From the IMG/VR virus record IMGVR_UViG_3300032240_000868, positions 1 through 30,656 of that record: a stretch of 30,656 nucleotides of DNA; one strand, given 5' to 3'. The first letter of the stretch is position 1, and the number at the start of each line of letters is the position of its first letter. Source of the stretch: a virus. Under the pieces are notes generated by a model, which saw only the letters and a program-made list of their open reading frames with translations, was not told where the DNA came from and ran no database searches. The translations under genes were made by a program, and so were the position numbers. This document shows, piece after piece, positions 4,617 to 11,141 of the stretch.

Positions 4617-6640
4617 ATATACAATCTATAGATTATAAGGATTGGTTCATTAACCAGAAAAGAATTCCAGATAAAGATAGCCAAGAACATAAGGCTTTCT
4701 TTGAGTTCCATAAAGACTTATGCCTAAATGGAGCTATGATGAATGGTGTCTACATAAATCCATTCCTCTATTGGCACTTAAATATATGGCACACAGAGGT
4801 GGATGTTATTGATGAGAGAGGTAGAATTAGCCAAAGCTACGCTAACCCATTGCTTAGAGATAATGAATGGATTGTAACAAATGAAATTGATAGGGCTCAG
4901 CAGGAGAAGAAAGGACTTGTTATTCTAGGAATCAGACGTTTTGCTAAGTCTGTTATTGAGGCAAGCTACATAGCATGGGGTGCAACATTTGATGAAAACT
5001 CTCAAAACATTATTGCTGGATTAAACGCTCCAGATATTAAGCTTATCACTGATAAGATTGATAAAGGACTCAACTTCCTACCAGAAGCTTGGAGATGGCA
5101 AAGGATAGAAGACAACTGGAAGAACCAAGTGACACTGGGAATTAAGACCAAAGGAGGAGAGAGAATACCGTTCTCTCAGATTCTTATCAGAAACCTTGAT
5201 GAGGGTAATAACGAAGAGGCTATTGCAGGTACAAAACCACGTAAACTAATTATAGATGAGATTGGTAAGGGATCTTTTCTTAGAGGTTTCCAGGCAGCTG
5301 TGCCTGGTTTCACCACACCATTTGGATGGGGTTGCTCTCCTATTCTTACAGGTACAGGTGGTGATATGAAGAGATTTATGGATGCAAAGAGCTTAATGTT
5401 CGATGTAGACAACTTTAACTTTCTTACATACAATAATGAAAAAGACACCATGAGGGTGCATGGCTTATTCATCTCTAATAAGTACAGGATGGAAGCCAAA
5501 GAGCAGTCTACATTAGGAGCTTTCTTAAATGAGCCAGAGGGTAGTGATCTTAACAACATCCCAATGCTTGTTAGCAATGAGGAGAAAGCTAACGAAATAA
5601 CAACCAACAACTTAGAACGCCTGAAGAAAGCAGGTGACAGGATAGCCTATCTAAAGGAAAAGATGTACTATCCAGTAGAAGTTGATGATATATTCCTTAA
5701 CGAGGACACTAATATATTTGATATTGAAGCTGCCAAAAGGCAGAAGACAAGGCTTATTCAAAATGAGCGTACAGGCACTCCTGTTATTCTCTACATGGAT
5801 GAGGATAAAATAGGGCATCAGTTTACAGACAAACAACCCATCACCAACTTCCCTCTAAAGAACAGTGATCTTAAAGATGCTCCTGTTGTAATATATGAAT
5901 TCCCTGTAGCTAGTCCTCCATATGGACTCTATGTTGCAGGTGTGGATCCCTATAGACAGGGACAATCAGCATATAGCTCCTCCTTAGGAGCAGTTTATGT
6001 TTATAAACGAATGCATGATTTGACAGGTGAGAAATATCAGGATATGTTCGTAGCTTCGTATGTAGCTAGACCTGATAAGAAGGAAACATGGGAAGAACAA
6101 GCTAGACTCCTCATCAAATATTATAATGCTAGAACGCTTTGTGAGAATGATGACATATCCTTTATAGAATATATGAAGGCAAAAGGAGATGCTCACTATC
6201 TAGAAAAACAACCTCAGTGGCTGCAGGAGATTGTTCCTAACACCACTGTAAAGAGAGAATATGGTATACACAGAAGCTCTCAGAAAATAATTGACTACCT
6301 TCACAACTGTTTGAAGAAGTATTTGGAAGAGATAGTGGTTGTAGAGAAAGATGATGATGGGAACATCACTAAGCAATTAACAGGAGTGAACAAGGTGTTT
6401 GATCCTGTTCTATTGGAAGAAGTGATACAATATAACGATCAGGGTAACTTTGACCGTATTGTGGCAGCAGAACTAGCTATTGCCCAGGCATATAAGATGG
6501 ATCCTATTATAGGGAGAGTTGGGGGGAGTGGTGATTCTAGAGTGGTGGCAATGTTTGCAAAGAAACACAATAACTCAAAACTATTTGATACAAGAGCCTC
6601 AGGCTTATTTGGAAATAAAAAACGTAAACTTTTTACATAA
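4613..6640 (+). CDS. terL: Terminase large subunit (packaging ATPase and nuclease), 675 aa
   Basis: It powers DNA translocation into the prohead and cuts the concatemer. Residues 106-113 (GIRRFAKS) are a variant Walker A and residues 212-216 (LIIDE) the Walker B with catalytic Glu; GTGGDMKRFMD near 247-257 fits the coupling region. The RNase H-like nuclease domain shows three acidic positions: D445 (VAGVDPYRQG), E511 (TLCENDD) and D614 (GNFDRIVAA). Length and layout fit crAss-like terminases. Its start overlaps the previous gene by 4 bases, and its TAA shares an A with the portal ATG. Confidence 0.92.
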   Translation: MNIQSIDYKDWFINQKRIPDKDSQEHKAFFEFHKDLCLNGAMMNGVYINPFLYWHLNIWHTEVDVIDERGRISQSYANPLLRDNEWIVTNEIDRAQQEKKGLVILGIRRFAKSVIEASYIAWGATFDENSQNIIAGLNAPDIKLITDKIDKGLNFLPEAWRWQRIEDNWKNQVTLGIKTKGGERIPFSQILIRNLDEGNNEEAIAGTKPRKLIIDEIGKGSFLRGFQAAVPGFTTPFGWGCSPILTGTGGDMKRFMDAKSLMFDVDNFNFLTYNNEKDTMRVHGLFISNKYRMEAKEQSTLGAFLNEPEGSDLNNIPMLVSNEEKANEITTNNLERLKKAGDRIAYLKEKMYYPVEVDDIFLNEDTNIFDIEAAKRQKTRLIQNERTGTPVILYMDEDKIGHQFTDKQPITNFPLKNSDLKDAPVVIYEFPVASPPYGLYVAGVDPYRQGQSAYSSSLGAVYVYKRMHDLTGEKYQDMFVASYVARPDKKETWEEQARLLIKYYNARTLCENDDISFIEYMKAKGDAHYLEKQPQWLQEIVPNTTVKREYGIHRSSQKIIDYLHNCLKKYLEEIVVVEKDDDGNITKQLTGVNKVFDPVLLEEVIQYNDQGNFDRIVAAELAIAQAYKMDPIIGRVGGSGDSRVVAMFAKKHNNSKLFDTRASGLFGNKKRKLFT

Positions 6641-9234
6641 TGGCAATTATTAGGTATACAAAAGATGCTACAATACGTTATGCGTATTTAAACATATTCC
6701 CTGACCAGTTCAAAACTGAGAAGGAGAAAAGAGATGAGAGCTGGATTAAGAACACAATGGATTATTTTGCAAATAAAGCTTATGCTGAATATGTAAAGAA
6801 CCGTGACACCTTTGTCAAGAACTATGATCTTGTAAAAGGAATTCTTCGTATGGAGGATTTCTATCAAGAGCCTGAAGTGAGGAGTTTTACAGATATGCTT
6901 ACAGCTGACCTTCAGCTTCCTGCATACGTGAAGCACTATTCCATTATAACAACACCAATTAATGAACTTGTAGGAGAGATAAGCAAGAGACCTGATGCAT
7001 TCAGGATTAAGGCATTTGATGATGACTCTCAGTCTGAAGAGCTGGAATATAAAACACAGATTTTGCAAGAATATATAATGTCTGAAGCAAGACAGAAGAT
7101 TCAGCAAAAAATGATGATGGAAGGAGTGGCACCTGAAGAAATAGATAATGAGCAAGTGGAAAAAATGACTTTTGAAGAAGTGAAAGATGATCTTGATTCA
7201 TACACATCTATAGCTGAGAAATGGGCAAATCACATTCTTACATGTCAAAAAGCTGATTTCAATTTAAAAGAAAAGAGCGAAGATGCATTTAGAGACATGC
7301 TTATTTCTGCTCGTGAATACTATCATATATATGAAGACAACTCAAAGGTGGGGTATAATATTGAAGTGGCTAACCCAAAAAATACATGGTTTCTCACCAC
7401 TCCTGATAGAAAGTACATCTCTGATCCTACAGGTAGAGCTCAAGGAGCCTATGCTGCTGGTACAGTGCAAGTTATGGAGCTTTCAGAAATTATTGAAGCA
7501 ATTCCTGACCTCACAAAAGAAGAAATAGATCATCTAAGAAGTTCTCTCCAAGACTATGGACTAATTAATGTCCGTGAATCAAATCTAGGTAATCCAAATG
7601 TCACTCCTGGTATTGACTCTGTAACCTATGATACATATGATCCACTGGTCCTTCAGACTCGTATGATTATCGAAAGTGAAATGAAGGAGAATAATGATGG
7701 TCTTAAAGATTTCTTAGGACTCACATCTAATGTGAGTTCATTTGGATATAAATATGTTGTTGTTAGAACTTATTGGATCTCTAAGAGAAAGATTGGAAAA
7801 CTTATTTATTTAGATGAATTAGGTAATGAGCAATCTATGCTTGTAGATGAGAATTACAAATCAGGAACTATTCCTACAGAGCAATCTTTGGAATGGGGAT
7901 GGATTAACCAATGGTATCAAGGAATAAAGATTGGTCCAGACATCTATCACATTAAACCATATAAGCTTCTTAACTACTGTCCTATCATTGGTCTAACTCA
8001 TGAGATTAAAAACACAGAAGCTAAGAGCTTAGTGGATATGATGAAACCTTTTCAGGTGTTATACAATGTTTGTATGAATCAGCTTTATAAGCTTCTTGAG
8101 AAGGAAGTGGGTAAGGTGTATTTGACATCCATTAGACATGTACCTGTTCCTAAGGATGGAGATGCACAAGATGCTCTTGATATATGGGAAATGGAAGCTA
8201 GGAATAGAGGCGTGGTGTTTATAGACGACTCTCCTGAGAATCTAAAGAGTCCTTCAAGCTTCAATCAATTTAGAGACATTGACCTTACACGTACACAAGA
8301 AATACAGTCTCGCTATCAGCTTGCTATGCAGCTTAAAAACGAATGTTGGGAATTGATTGGTATGAGTAGACAAAGACTTGGATCTGTATCAGCTAGTGAG
8401 TCTGCTACAGGAACTAACACAGCAATAGCTCAATCTTATTCTCAAACAGAACCTTTGTTTGTAGCACATGAATATGTTCTTGGTCAACTTTATCAAGCTG
8501 TCATAGATGCTTCATTATATATTGAAAGTAAAAAACCTCAATCCACCCTATCATACATCACATCTGAAGGAGAATCTGCTTTTGTTCAAGTGAATGGTAC
8601 AGATCTTAAATTCCGTGATCTTAAAGTGTTTGCTACAAACAGACCTGAAGACAAACAGATGTTTAATGAGATTAGAGGACTTTCTCAAGCTGTTATTCAA
8701 AACGGTGGAAGCTTACATGATGTAATTGAGCTATATTCTACCAACTCTATGAGAGAAATGAAGAAGGTGTTCAAGACACTTAAAGATAGACAAGAGCAAA
8801 TGCAAGATCAGCAAATGCAACAACAGCAGCAACAATTGCAACAGCAACAACAACAAGCAGAAGCTCAAATGCAAATGGCTCAACAGCAACAAGCTGAGAA
8901 ACTTGCACATGATGATTATCAGAAAGAGCTTGATAGGATTAATAAGAAAGAGATTGCCATCATTCAAGCTACAGGATATGGTAAGGTGGGATCAGAAGAT
9001 GTTAATCAAAATGAAGTTCCTGATGTATTGGAAATGAGCAAGTTAGCTAATGAACAAACAAAAGCTGCTAAAGATTATGAGATGAAAATGGCTGATATAC
9101 AGTCAAAAAATACATTAGCTGCTCAAAAGCTTCAGCTTGAAAGAGAGAAGCTTCAAGTGGCTAGAGAAAACCAAGCAAATGACTTAGCTGTTGCTAAAGA
9201 GAATGCTAAAGGAAGAAACAAAAAATCTAAATAA
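6640..9234 (+). CDS. Portal protein, 864 aa
   Basis: It would form the dodecameric DNA gate at the capsid vertex, docking terminase and neck. Identification rests on position (directly after the terminase, TAATG overlap), length typical of crAss-like portals, and the helical core followed by a long coiled tail. Residues about 720-757 are a Gln-rich stretch (many CAA/CAG codons at 8797-8900), then a charged coiled coil to the basic C-terminus (GRNKKSK). The Gln-rich part probably lies in the portal barrel or an exposed tail. It overlaps the SPFH gene by one base. Confidence 0.87.
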   Translation: MAIIRYTKDATIRYAYLNIFPDQFKTEKEKRDESWIKNTMDYFANKAYAEYVKNRDTFVKNYDLVKGILRMEDFYQEPEVRSFTDMLTADLQLPAYVKHYSIITTPINELVGEISKRPDAFRIKAFDDDSQSEELEYKTQILQEYIMSEARQKIQQKMMMEGVAPEEIDNEQVEKMTFEEVKDDLDSYTSIAEKWANHILTCQKADFNLKEKSEDAFRDMLISAREYYHIYEDNSKVGYNIEVANPKNTWFLTTPDRKYISDPTGRAQGAYAAGTVQVMELSEIIEAIPDLTKEEIDHLRSSLQDYGLINVRESNLGNPNVTPGIDSVTYDTYDPLVLQTRMIIESEMKENNDGLKDFLGLTSNVSSFGYKYVVVRTYWISKRKIGKLIYLDELGNEQSMLVDENYKSGTIPTEQSLEWGWINQWYQGIKIGPDIYHIKPYKLLNYCPIIGLTHEIKNTEAKSLVDMMKPFQVLYNVCMNQLYKLLEKEVGKVYLTSIRHVPVPKDGDAQDALDIWEMEARNRGVVFIDDSPENLKSPSSFNQFRDIDLTRTQEIQSRYQLAMQLKNECWELIGMSRQRLGSVSASESATGTNTAIAQSYSQTEPLFVAHEYVLGQLYQAVIDASLYIESKKPQSTLSYITSEGESAFVQVNGTDLKFRDLKVFATNRPEDKQMFNEIRGLSQAVIQNGGSLHDVIELYSTNSMREMKKVFKTLKDRQEQMQDQQMQQQQQQLQQQQQQAEAQMQMAQQQQAEKLAHDDYQKELDRINKKEIAIIQATGYGKVGSEDVNQNEVPDVLEMSKLANEQTKAAKDYEMKMADIQSKNTLAAQKLQLEREKLQVARENQANDLAVAKENAKGRNKKSK

Positions 9235-9764
9235 TGTTTGACAAACTCATAGACTTAATTATAAATTGGTTTAATTATCTCACACCTGCTGTAATTATTC
9301 CAAATTATGAAGAGGCAGTGCTTCTCAGGAACGGACATTTTAAGAAGGTGTTAGGTCCAGGATTTCACGTGAAACTGCCTGTATTTGATGAGGTGATTAC
9401 ACAACACGTTGTTGTAACTACGCTTAGCTTAGCAGCTCAGTCTCTTTATACAAAGGATAAACAAAACATAGTTGTAAAGGGAGTGATTAAATACAGGATA
9501 GCAGATGTTAAAATATTCCTTCTAGAAGTGTTTGATGCACAAGACGCTTTAGCTGATATGACACAGTCCATCATCAAGAACATAATCATATCCTCTTCCC
9601 TGGAACAATGTATAGATCCTGAGATGGATAACGTTCTCACTAAGAAGGTGAGAGCAGAAGCAAGAAAATGGGGAGTGGATATACAACAAGTGACACTAAC
9701 AGATATAGCTCCAATCAGAAGTTTTAGGATAATAAATGACACTGTTCTAAACAAACTTGATTAG
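9234..9764 (+). CDS. SPFH/band-7 (stomatin/prohibitin-like) domain protein, 176 aa
   Basis: The start is a hydrophobic helix (LIDLIINWFNYLTPAVIIPN), followed by the band-7 core: VLLRNGHFKKVLGPGFHVKL, then TLSLAAQSLYTKDKQNIVVK, VIKYRIADVK, a long helix, and WGVDIQQVTLTDIAPIRSFR, which matches the end of band-7 domains. The coiled-coil C-terminus usual in stomatins and flotillins is missing. Host relatives scaffold membrane microdomains and regulate proteases such as FtsH. The TAATG overlap with the portal shows it belongs to the structural operon. Its phage role is unknown to me; membrane-associated assembly or host-protease control are possibilities. Confidence 0.82.
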   Translation: MFDKLIDLIINWFNYLTPAVIIPNYEEAVLLRNGHFKKVLGPGFHVKLPVFDEVITQHVVVTTLSLAAQSLYTKDKQNIVVKGVIKYRIADVKIFLLEVFDAQDALADMTQSIIKNIIISSSLEQCIDPEMDNVLTKKVRAEARKWGVDIQQVTLTDIAPIRSFRIINDTVLNKLD

Positions 9765-9823
9765 AGTAAAATATTTTAATGCTATATTATCTTGAAAAAC
9801 AGGGTGTATAGGCACTATTCTCT

Positions 9824-9853
9824 TTGTTAATAATATAATGTTATATACTTTTA
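9824..9853 (+). promoter_or_regulatory. Probable promoter before the scaffold and capsid genes
   Basis: TTG (9824-9826), 19 bases, TACTTTTA (9846-9853) resembles TAnnTTTG with A in the last place, as in the promoters at 18480 and 28482. It lies in the 117-base gap before the scaffold gene, the largest gap since 2588. A second weaker combination (TTG 9792-9794 with TCTCTTTG 9819-9826) overlaps it. Confidence 0.55.
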
Positions 9854-9858
9854 CATTG

Positions 9859-9881
9859 AAAACCAGATAAATAAACTACAT
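9859..9881 (+). promoter_or_regulatory. A-rich translation leader, copy 1
   Basis: AAAACCAGATAAATAAACTACAT precedes the scaffold ATG in three pieces (AAAACCAGAT, AAATAAACT, ACAT). Almost the same leader recurs before the gene that follows the capsid protein (12909-12932). It has no Shine-Dalgarno sequence. Confidence 0.6.
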
Positions 9882-11141
9882 ATGGCCGAAAATTTGGACA
9901 ACCCACAGATGGGTAACTTCAGCATTCAAGACACAATGGAAATGGGAATGGGTAGTACAGAGCTTTTAAATGATCTGTTTGCTCCTGAAACATCCACTAG
10001 TTCACCTGATGATATTCAGGAAATTAAAGATGAAACACCAGCTCCTGCTCCTAAGAAATCAGCAAAAGCTCCAGTTGCAACAGAAGTAGAACCTGAAGCT
10101 AAACCTGCAGAAGATGCCTCAAAATCTATACAAGATTTTCTTCTTGGTGGTAATGATGATGAGGAAGAAGATGATGAAATTCCTGCTCCAAAAGCAAAGA
10201 AACAAGAAGCTGCTCCTGTAGCTGAAGAAACAGAAGAGTCTGAGGAACAAGAAGTTAGCCAATTTGCTGCTCTATCTAAGGATCTTCTTAAACTTGGTGT
10301 ATTCTCAGCTGATGATGAAGAAGAAGAGTTTAACATTTCCACTCCTGAAGAATTCCTTGAGAGATTCAACATGGAAAAGAAGAAGGGAGCTATTGAAGTG
10401 GTTAACAACTTCATTGGACAGTTTGGTGAAGACTATCAAAATGCTTTTGAAGCAATATTTGTTAAAGGAGTTGATCCAAAGGAATATTTTGGCACATATA
10501 ACCAAATTCAGAGCTTTGCTGAAATGGACTTGTCACAAGAGAATAATCAAGTGGCAGTTTTGAAACAAGCTCTAACAGACCAAGGATTTGATCCTGAGGA
10601 TGTTGATACAGAAGTGGAGCGTCTGAAGAATTATGGTGATCTCGAAACTGTTGCAGCCAAACACCACAAGGTGTTGGTTAAAAAGGAAGCTGCAAAGCTT
10701 GCTCAAATGGAACAGCAAAGAGAAGTACAATTACAACAACAAGCAGCTATAAAGCAGCAATATTACACCAACGTACAATCTGTCTTACAGGAAAAACTTA
10801 AGACAAAAGAGTTCGATGGTATCCCTATTAATCCCAAGCTTGCTGGCGAACTACAAGATTTCCTTCTAGTTGATAAGTACAAAACACCATCTGGTGAGAC
10901 ACTCACTGATTTCGATCGTACCATCCTAGAACTAAAGCGTCCTGAAAACCACGAAATGAAGGTGAAGGTGGGACTTCTTCTCAAGATTCTTGAGAAAGAT
11001 CCTACGCTCTCTACAATTCAGAAGACAGGAATCACTAAGAAGTCAAACGAACTTTTTGGTGAGGTAGCAAGACAGGCTAGTAAGTCTGGGGTTAAATCTA
11101 GTTCAAATAAATCCAGTAAGCCAAATTCATGGTTTCTCTAA
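9882..11141 (+). CDS. Probable scaffolding protein, 419 aa
   Basis: It sits just before the major capsid gene, the classic place for a scaffold. The N-terminal 130 residues are low-complexity Ala/Pro/Glu/Asp with strong acidic runs near 93-99 (GGNDDEEEDDE) and 112-125. The middle and C-terminus are helical and Gln/Lys-rich (around residues 265-305), ending with a Ser/Lys tail (SSSNKSSKPNSWFL). Scaffolds line the prohead interior and are lost before packaging. An alternative would be a fused inner-head protein; no protease motif is seen. A promoter-like pair and A-rich leader lie upstream. Confidence 0.78.
   Translation: MAENLDNPQMGNFSIQDTMEMGMGSTELLNDLFAPETSTSSPDDIQEIKDETPAPAPKKSAKAPVATEVEPEAKPAEDASKSIQDFLLGGNDDEEEDDEIPAPKAKKQEAAPVAEETEESEEQEVSQFAALSKDLLKLGVFSADDEEEEFNISTPEEFLERFNMEKKKGAIEVVNNFIGQFGEDYQNAFEAIFVKGVDPKEYFGTYNQIQSFAEMDLSQENNQVAVLKQALTDQGFDPEDVDTEVERLKNYGDLETVAAKHHKVLVKKEAAKLAQMEQQREVQLQQQAAIKQQYYTNVQSVLQEKLKTKEFDGIPINPKLAGELQDFLLVDKYKTPSGETLTDFDRTILELKRPENHEMKVKVGLLLKILEKDPTLSTIQKTGITKKSNELFGEVARQASKSGVKSSSNKSSKPNSWFL

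Follow-up and report, generated by a model that had tools for sequence, protein, structure and literature searches.

An accessory, tail-less SPFH gene beside the portal gene of crAss-like phages

SPFH proteins are membrane organisers found in all domains of life, and the presence of a gene for one in the packaging and capsid block of a phage raises the question of what such a protein might do there. The gene lies in a 30.7-kb virus record (IMG/VR record IMGVR_UViG_3300032240_000868, 30,656 nucleotides), the whole of which is here called the window. An earlier note, made from the letters alone, had placed a band-7 gene between portal and scaffold in a packaging/capsid setting. That setting holds, with a P22-like/crAss portal, a TerL (phrog_6681) and, two genes downstream of the SPFH reading frame, a crAss-type MCP (Crass_capsid PF23898, 99.9 bits); these three genes in conserved order identify the window as a member of the Crassvirales. 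The portal border is secured by profile matches, whereas the downstream border is called scaffold by position and composition only, phrog_16294 being its sole hit of note. The immediate neighbours of the SPFH gene are thus the portal and this putative scaffold, with no NfeD-family gene beside it, and a search of the window against Rfam gave no matches. The features of the locus are collected in Table 1; we refer to the 176-residue product as the mini-SPFH.

Table 1. Features of the mini-SPFH locus, in window coordinates.
Feature	Position	Strand	Basis or remark
Portal gene, flanking the slot upstream	6640..9234	+	P22_portal and phrog_6547
Mini-SPFH (Band_7) gene	9234..9764	+	176 aa, ATG start
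Predicted N-terminal amphipathic helix FDKLIDLIINWFNYL, codons 2-16	9237..9281	+	likely membrane-surface anchor
SPFH1+SPFH2 domain, codons 21-160	9294..9713	+	Pfam residues 21-160; predicted models
Conserved short C-terminal end APIRSFRIINDTVLNKLD, codons 159-176, in place of a coiled-coil tail	9708..9761	+	low model confidence
Intergenic region, 117 nt	9765..9881	+	invariant TTAATGCTATATTA and promoter-like motif before the scaffold ATG
Putative scaffold gene, flanking the slot downstream	9882..11141	+	position and composition; phrog_16294, unknown function

The assignment to the SPFH/band-7 family is borne out by profile search and by structure prediction. Pfam Band_7 (PF01145) matches with 88.8 bits (E 6e-25, cut-off 23.6), and a PDB profile search with 29 relatives returns stomatin (E 3e-14), as well as QmcA and HflK/HflC; with 32 more diverse rows the stomatin match reaches E 8e-17. 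An AlphaFold2 model from the diverse-row alignment (pLDDT 79) spans the whole SPFH1+SPFH2 unit, in agreement with the complete core claimed earlier, and Foldseek matches the predicted model to the cage subunits of human stomatin and E. coli QmcA (TM 0.76-0.77, E 4e-14 to 1e-10). The predicted fold ends near residue 160, some 15 further residues follow, and the protein then stops; the coiled-coil is absent, as the earlier note had read it, from every copy. Nine columns of the C-terminal end are invariant (A159, P160, I161, S163, R165, N168, D169, N173 and D176), and residues 167-176 have pLDDT values below 50.

The gene is evidently a working one. In the first set of loci, to which some contigs contribute several times, all 106 window-type copies are 176 residues long and all five divergent copies 175; no frameshift was observed. 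Median dN/dS across 49 genomes is 0.088 for the SPFH gene, compared with 0.092 for TerL, 0.102 for the portal, 0.18 for the scaffold and 0.053 for the MCP. We conclude, on this sequence evidence, that it is a functional gene under purifying selection; fixed length and dN/dS together rule out a single-protein artefact or a pseudogene.

The N-terminus bears on where the protein would sit. It had been described as hydrophobic, but by a simple hydropathy test an amphipathic helix (hydrophobic moment 0.60) fits better than a transmembrane segment, the best 19-residue Kyte-Doolittle mean of 1.37 falling under the usual transmembrane range. In the divergent alleles hydrophobicity at the N-terminus is lower again, and hydropathy analysis of the mini-SPFH shows no clear export signal or transmembrane segment. 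Because the N-terminus is amphipathic and not clearly transmembrane, these features suggest a cytoplasmic protein of the membrane surface. In E. coli the SPFH domains of QmcA and YqiK face the cytoplasm and those of HflKC the periplasm (PMC10434171), and this topology makes a QmcA-like orientation the more natural guess for the mini-SPFH. Truncated E. coli constructs that retain the transmembrane and SPFH parts stay membrane-bound and lose normal clustering (PMC10434171).

The one-base overlap with the portal, which had seemed to couple the two genes, is real: portal stop and SPFH start share a base in TAATG. Among 66 non-redundant genomes the window-type start lies at -1 (28 genomes) or +2 (34) relative to the portal stop, or else at +3 or +6, giving an overlap or a spacing of at most 6 nt in 64 of them; in the remaining two the distance is about 200 nt. 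An unrelated 78-residue gene that can occupy the same slot is packed just as tightly on to the portal, and the overlap therefore reflects how genes are packed within the slot and need not imply joint function. Correlation of Band_7 and portal distances is r 0.42, compared with means of 0.43-0.63 for 176-residue pieces of neighbouring genes.

Downstream of the gene, the 14-mer TTAATGCTATATTA (9776-9789) is invariant in relatives whether the SPFH gene is present or absent. The near-complete genome G028 has one copy, the last 13 bases of which occur once more elsewhere in that genome. A Bacteroidota-type promoter-like motif, TTTG-N19-TActTTTa (9808-9850), is likewise seen with and without the SPFH gene. 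Since this motif lies downstream in both kinds of genome, the SPFH gene is probably transcribed with TerL and the portal and not with the scaffold and MCP, a placement made by motif match only.

Comparison of 97 non-redundant, MCP-centred relatives shows that the gene is accessory rather than core. The portal-scaffold slot holds a window-type SPFH gene in 40, a divergent one in six and other genes in 12, and is empty in 39, leaving a gap of about 99-152 nt; thus neither SPFH type is present in 51 of these close relatives, which share portal, scaffold and MCP. The divergent proteins are about 28% identical to the window type, tail-less, and about equal to it in length. No Band_7 match was found in near-complete empty-slot genomes of 113.7, 114.0, 114.5 and 114.7 kb, or in other large records without SPFH in the slot; one empty-slot record (G009) has a longer SPFH gene at another site. 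The other slot genes are mostly two small reading frames, of 78 residues and of 84-89 residues with an HExxH motif (LHEHFHLKHPD), present together in 11 genomes, in none of which does the same locus hold an SPFH gene. The pair lies at L282:5102-5570 and in 10 similar loci. In a phage resembling Leptolyngbya phage Lbo-JY46 the slot (L271:5280-5711) carries a 143-residue frame that contains the motif HECVH; BLAST shows no relation between this frame and the 78/84-89-residue pair.

On a portal tree these slot states cluster, and the starred branches force at least four changes for the empty state and three for the divergent SPFH. The root is poorly placed, with a very long outgroup branch, so that gain and loss are not separable with certainty; the nested positions nevertheless make recurrent loss, with two or more in-place replacements, the likelier history. 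Strongly conserved where it occurs, yet missing or swapped in close relatives, the mini-SPFH probably serves as an optional means of managing the host membrane, and not as a part that every virion needs.

The gene also appears to have moved further afield. Within the window's group, mean divergence is 4% for the MCP and 23% for the SPFH protein. This pattern is reversed in L267, a deeply divergent crAss-like phage from a set related to Lbo-JY46, in which MCP, portal and TerL are only 26%, 28% and 43% identical to those of the window and the SPFH protein (176 residues) is 56% identical. That reversal is strong evidence, at the level of sequence comparison, for horizontal transfer between lineages. 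In L267 the gene lies immediately upstream of a TerS-like frame, followed by TerL, and its start is overlapped by a GIY-YIG homing-endonuclease-like frame; a second contig (L353) has the identical arrangement. A homing endonuclease of this type is a plausible vehicle for the transfer. Frames resembling GIY-YIG or NUMOD homing endonucleases were noted at L350:6073-6834, beside the L267 SPFH gene, and in the L131 slot.

A third setting is provided by the podovirus ctgrD200 (45-kb genome), in which a tail-less SPFH protein of about 178 residues is encoded directly after TerL. The mini-SPFH gene thus adjoins packaging genes in all three contexts located, namely the portal-scaffold slot, L267 and ctgrD200; this is suggestive of a link to assembly, three contexts from a biased sample of loci being too few for a firm claim. 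With the ctgrD200 protein as query nothing was confirmed among viral contigs, and among genome contigs, scanned for cellular relatives and for integrated copies, no relative was confirmed either.

Lbo-JY46 (L160, PP438436.1), the isolate closest to the window by portal (268 bits) and by MCP, is recorded on a cyanobacterium; crAss-like phages are for the most part associated with Bacteroidota. Tissierellales were considered as hosts on the strength of a lone MAG contig (L258, JACIXZ010000023.1) whose MCP is 88% identical, and were set aside since this is probably a mis-binned phage contig.

How might such a protein act? In cellular SPFH proteins, SPFH1/SPFH2 units pack side by side on the membrane and the coiled-coil forms the wall of a cage. 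We tentatively prefer, at somewhat less than an even chance, the view that the mini-SPFH is a mobile accessory factor of the membrane surface that acts on SPFH assemblies of the host. Its amphipathic helix would probably hold it on the cytoplasmic face of the inner membrane; with the SPFH1/SPFH2 unit present and the coiled-coil needed for the cage wall absent, it could insert into, cap or replace stomatin/QmcA-type assemblies late in infection, altering membrane domains or the environment of membrane proteases in the phage's favour. Its target would then be the host, and it would not be a required part of the virion. Against this stand three points: contact with a host SPFH protein is something that we infer; constraint equal to that on head genes is unusual for an accessory gene of host interaction; and the packaging neighbourhoods fit a role in packaging or assembly at least as well.

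This last point leads to the main rival, which we rate as rather unlikely: that the mini-SPFH is a membrane anchor or helper for the portal, comparable to T4 gp40, which would keep portal protein at the inner membrane through coupled translation, with the prohead starting there and host factors substituting where the gene is missing. The tight spacing to the portal (64/66 genomes), the packaging genes beside every located mini-SPFH gene, a dN/dS like that of packaging genes and the gp40/gp20 precedent in T4 (PMC9958956) all speak for it. Absence from 51 of 97 close relatives argues against a strict need, unrelated slot genes sit equally tight on the portal, the correlation with the portal does not rise above that of pieces of neighbouring genes, and in L267 a 56%-identical SPFH copy stands alongside a portal only 28% identical. 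The earlier proposal that the protein places prohead assembly on the membrane is a possibility weakened by the 39 empty slots and by the near-complete empty-slot genomes without a Band_7 match. A broader form, less probable again, is that a distinct tail-less phage SPFH family, spread between unrelated phages, perhaps carried by homing endonucleases and settling again and again near packaging genes, forms a membrane platform for portal or prohead initiation; if true, this would be a viral use of SPFH domains without a known cellular counterpart.

The remaining explanations are more doubtful. Patchy presence, in-place swaps with a divergent homologue or with unrelated genes, and mobility between lineages would suit a superinfection-exclusion or anti-defence factor at the membrane; selection is purifying and not diversifying, the gene sits among late genes, PADLOC models give no match to the mini-SPFH up to E 0.1, and our literature search found no SPFH anti-phage system; we rate this explanation as improbable. 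By the last two results, the idea of a block on host band-7 defence finds no support here. Slightly less probable is an HflK/C-like modulator of FtsH that shields late phage proteins from degradation. HflK and HflC are FtsH modulators, and the hflK (65.7 bits) and hflC (45.7) models match, the former well above chance, but these scores lie far under the equivalog cut-offs and similarity to stomatin/QmcA is at least as strong. Moreover, the SPFH domains of HflK/HflC are periplasmic (PMC10434171) and the mini-SPFH shows neither a clear export signal nor a clear transmembrane segment, so that the shielding proposed earlier could operate only indirectly. Least probable is a minor virion or ejected protein easing genome passage across the inner membrane: a longer Band_7 protein of jumbo phage CBB (gp29) is annotated as structural, but it is a distant relative of 291 residues encoded outside the packaging block, and the mini-SPFH is missing from over half of the close relatives.

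Whichever reading is correct, selection has here maintained a minimal SPFH protein that lacks the coiled-coil, the presumed builder of the cage, and its carriers are a widespread, abundant, water-borne crAss-like group with natural pairs that have or lack the gene and an in-place swap. They offer a tractable system for the effect of an SPFH domain alone on a membrane, and for whether tailed phages beyond T4 rely on a membrane helper in portal assembly.

Among known systems, the closest to the mini-SPFH are stomatin and QmcA (YbbK), the best sequence-profile matches in the PDB, with which it shares the full SPFH1+SPFH2 fold. It differs from them in length (176 residues against 256-308), in lacking a coiled-coil or cap, in its amphipathic anchor where theirs is transmembrane or a hairpin, and in having no adjoining NfeD partner. 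A C-terminal coiled-coil or cap is a feature of the cage-forming SPFH proteins stomatin, QmcA, HflKC, prohibitin and flotillin alike. HflK and HflC have the same domain and both NCBIfam models match the mini-SPFH, but neither equivalog cut-off (159.4 for hflK, 134.4 for hflC) is reached, and the mini-SPFH comes from one gene where HflK and HflC are two, without the coiled-coil or a clear transmembrane segment. T4 requires gp40, a chaperone of portal assembly at the membrane, for prohead assembly, which begins on the inner membrane (PMC9958956); gp40 may be an analogue of the mini-SPFH in position and membrane association, the analogy being functional only.

Band_7 proteins of full length (phrog_200, 'lipoprotein') are also encoded by phages, including Rhizobium phage RHEph10, Escherichia phage Skarpretter, Pectobacterium phage CBB and Pseudomonas phages, and SPFH genes of unclear role have been remarked on in Pseudomonas phages (PMC8540360). 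Those examined (RHEph10, Skarpretter, CBB and XbC2) are 283-291 residues long, and their neighbours are genes of nucleotide metabolism, replication or small unknown genes, whereas mini-SPFH genes neighbour packaging genes. Longer SPFH proteins were also seen at L349:3193-3996 in the L111 genome (267 residues, with a lipoprotein-type signal at the start) and at L348:2367-3149 in Lbo-JY46 (260 residues). Two fecal-phage hits, MT835563 and MT836173, were rejected as cellular-type, being full-length coiled-coil SPFH proteins, one beside an NfeD-like frame. In a tree, a branch with 94/98 support separates tail-less from long forms, the latter falling with cellular proteins, except for OLIVR1; the 'band 7-like' entry of OLIVR1 was discarded, its annotated CDS being opposite in strand to the match and having no domain hit.

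Two further tail-less proteins are the 'prohibitin-like protein' of ctgrD200 (MW202733), whose C-terminal end (IRAVRLLID) resembles that of the mini-SPFH, and the uncultured-phage protein A0A6J7WFI0 (173 residues), the top viral fold match of the mini-SPFH (30% identity). Both are of tail-less length (173-178 residues) and only 24-30% identical to the mini-SPFH. Our literature search found no SPFH proteins in crAss-like phages and prohibitin only in passing mentions. Phage SPFH proteins as such were already known; the mobile, tail-less form beside packaging genes appears to be new.
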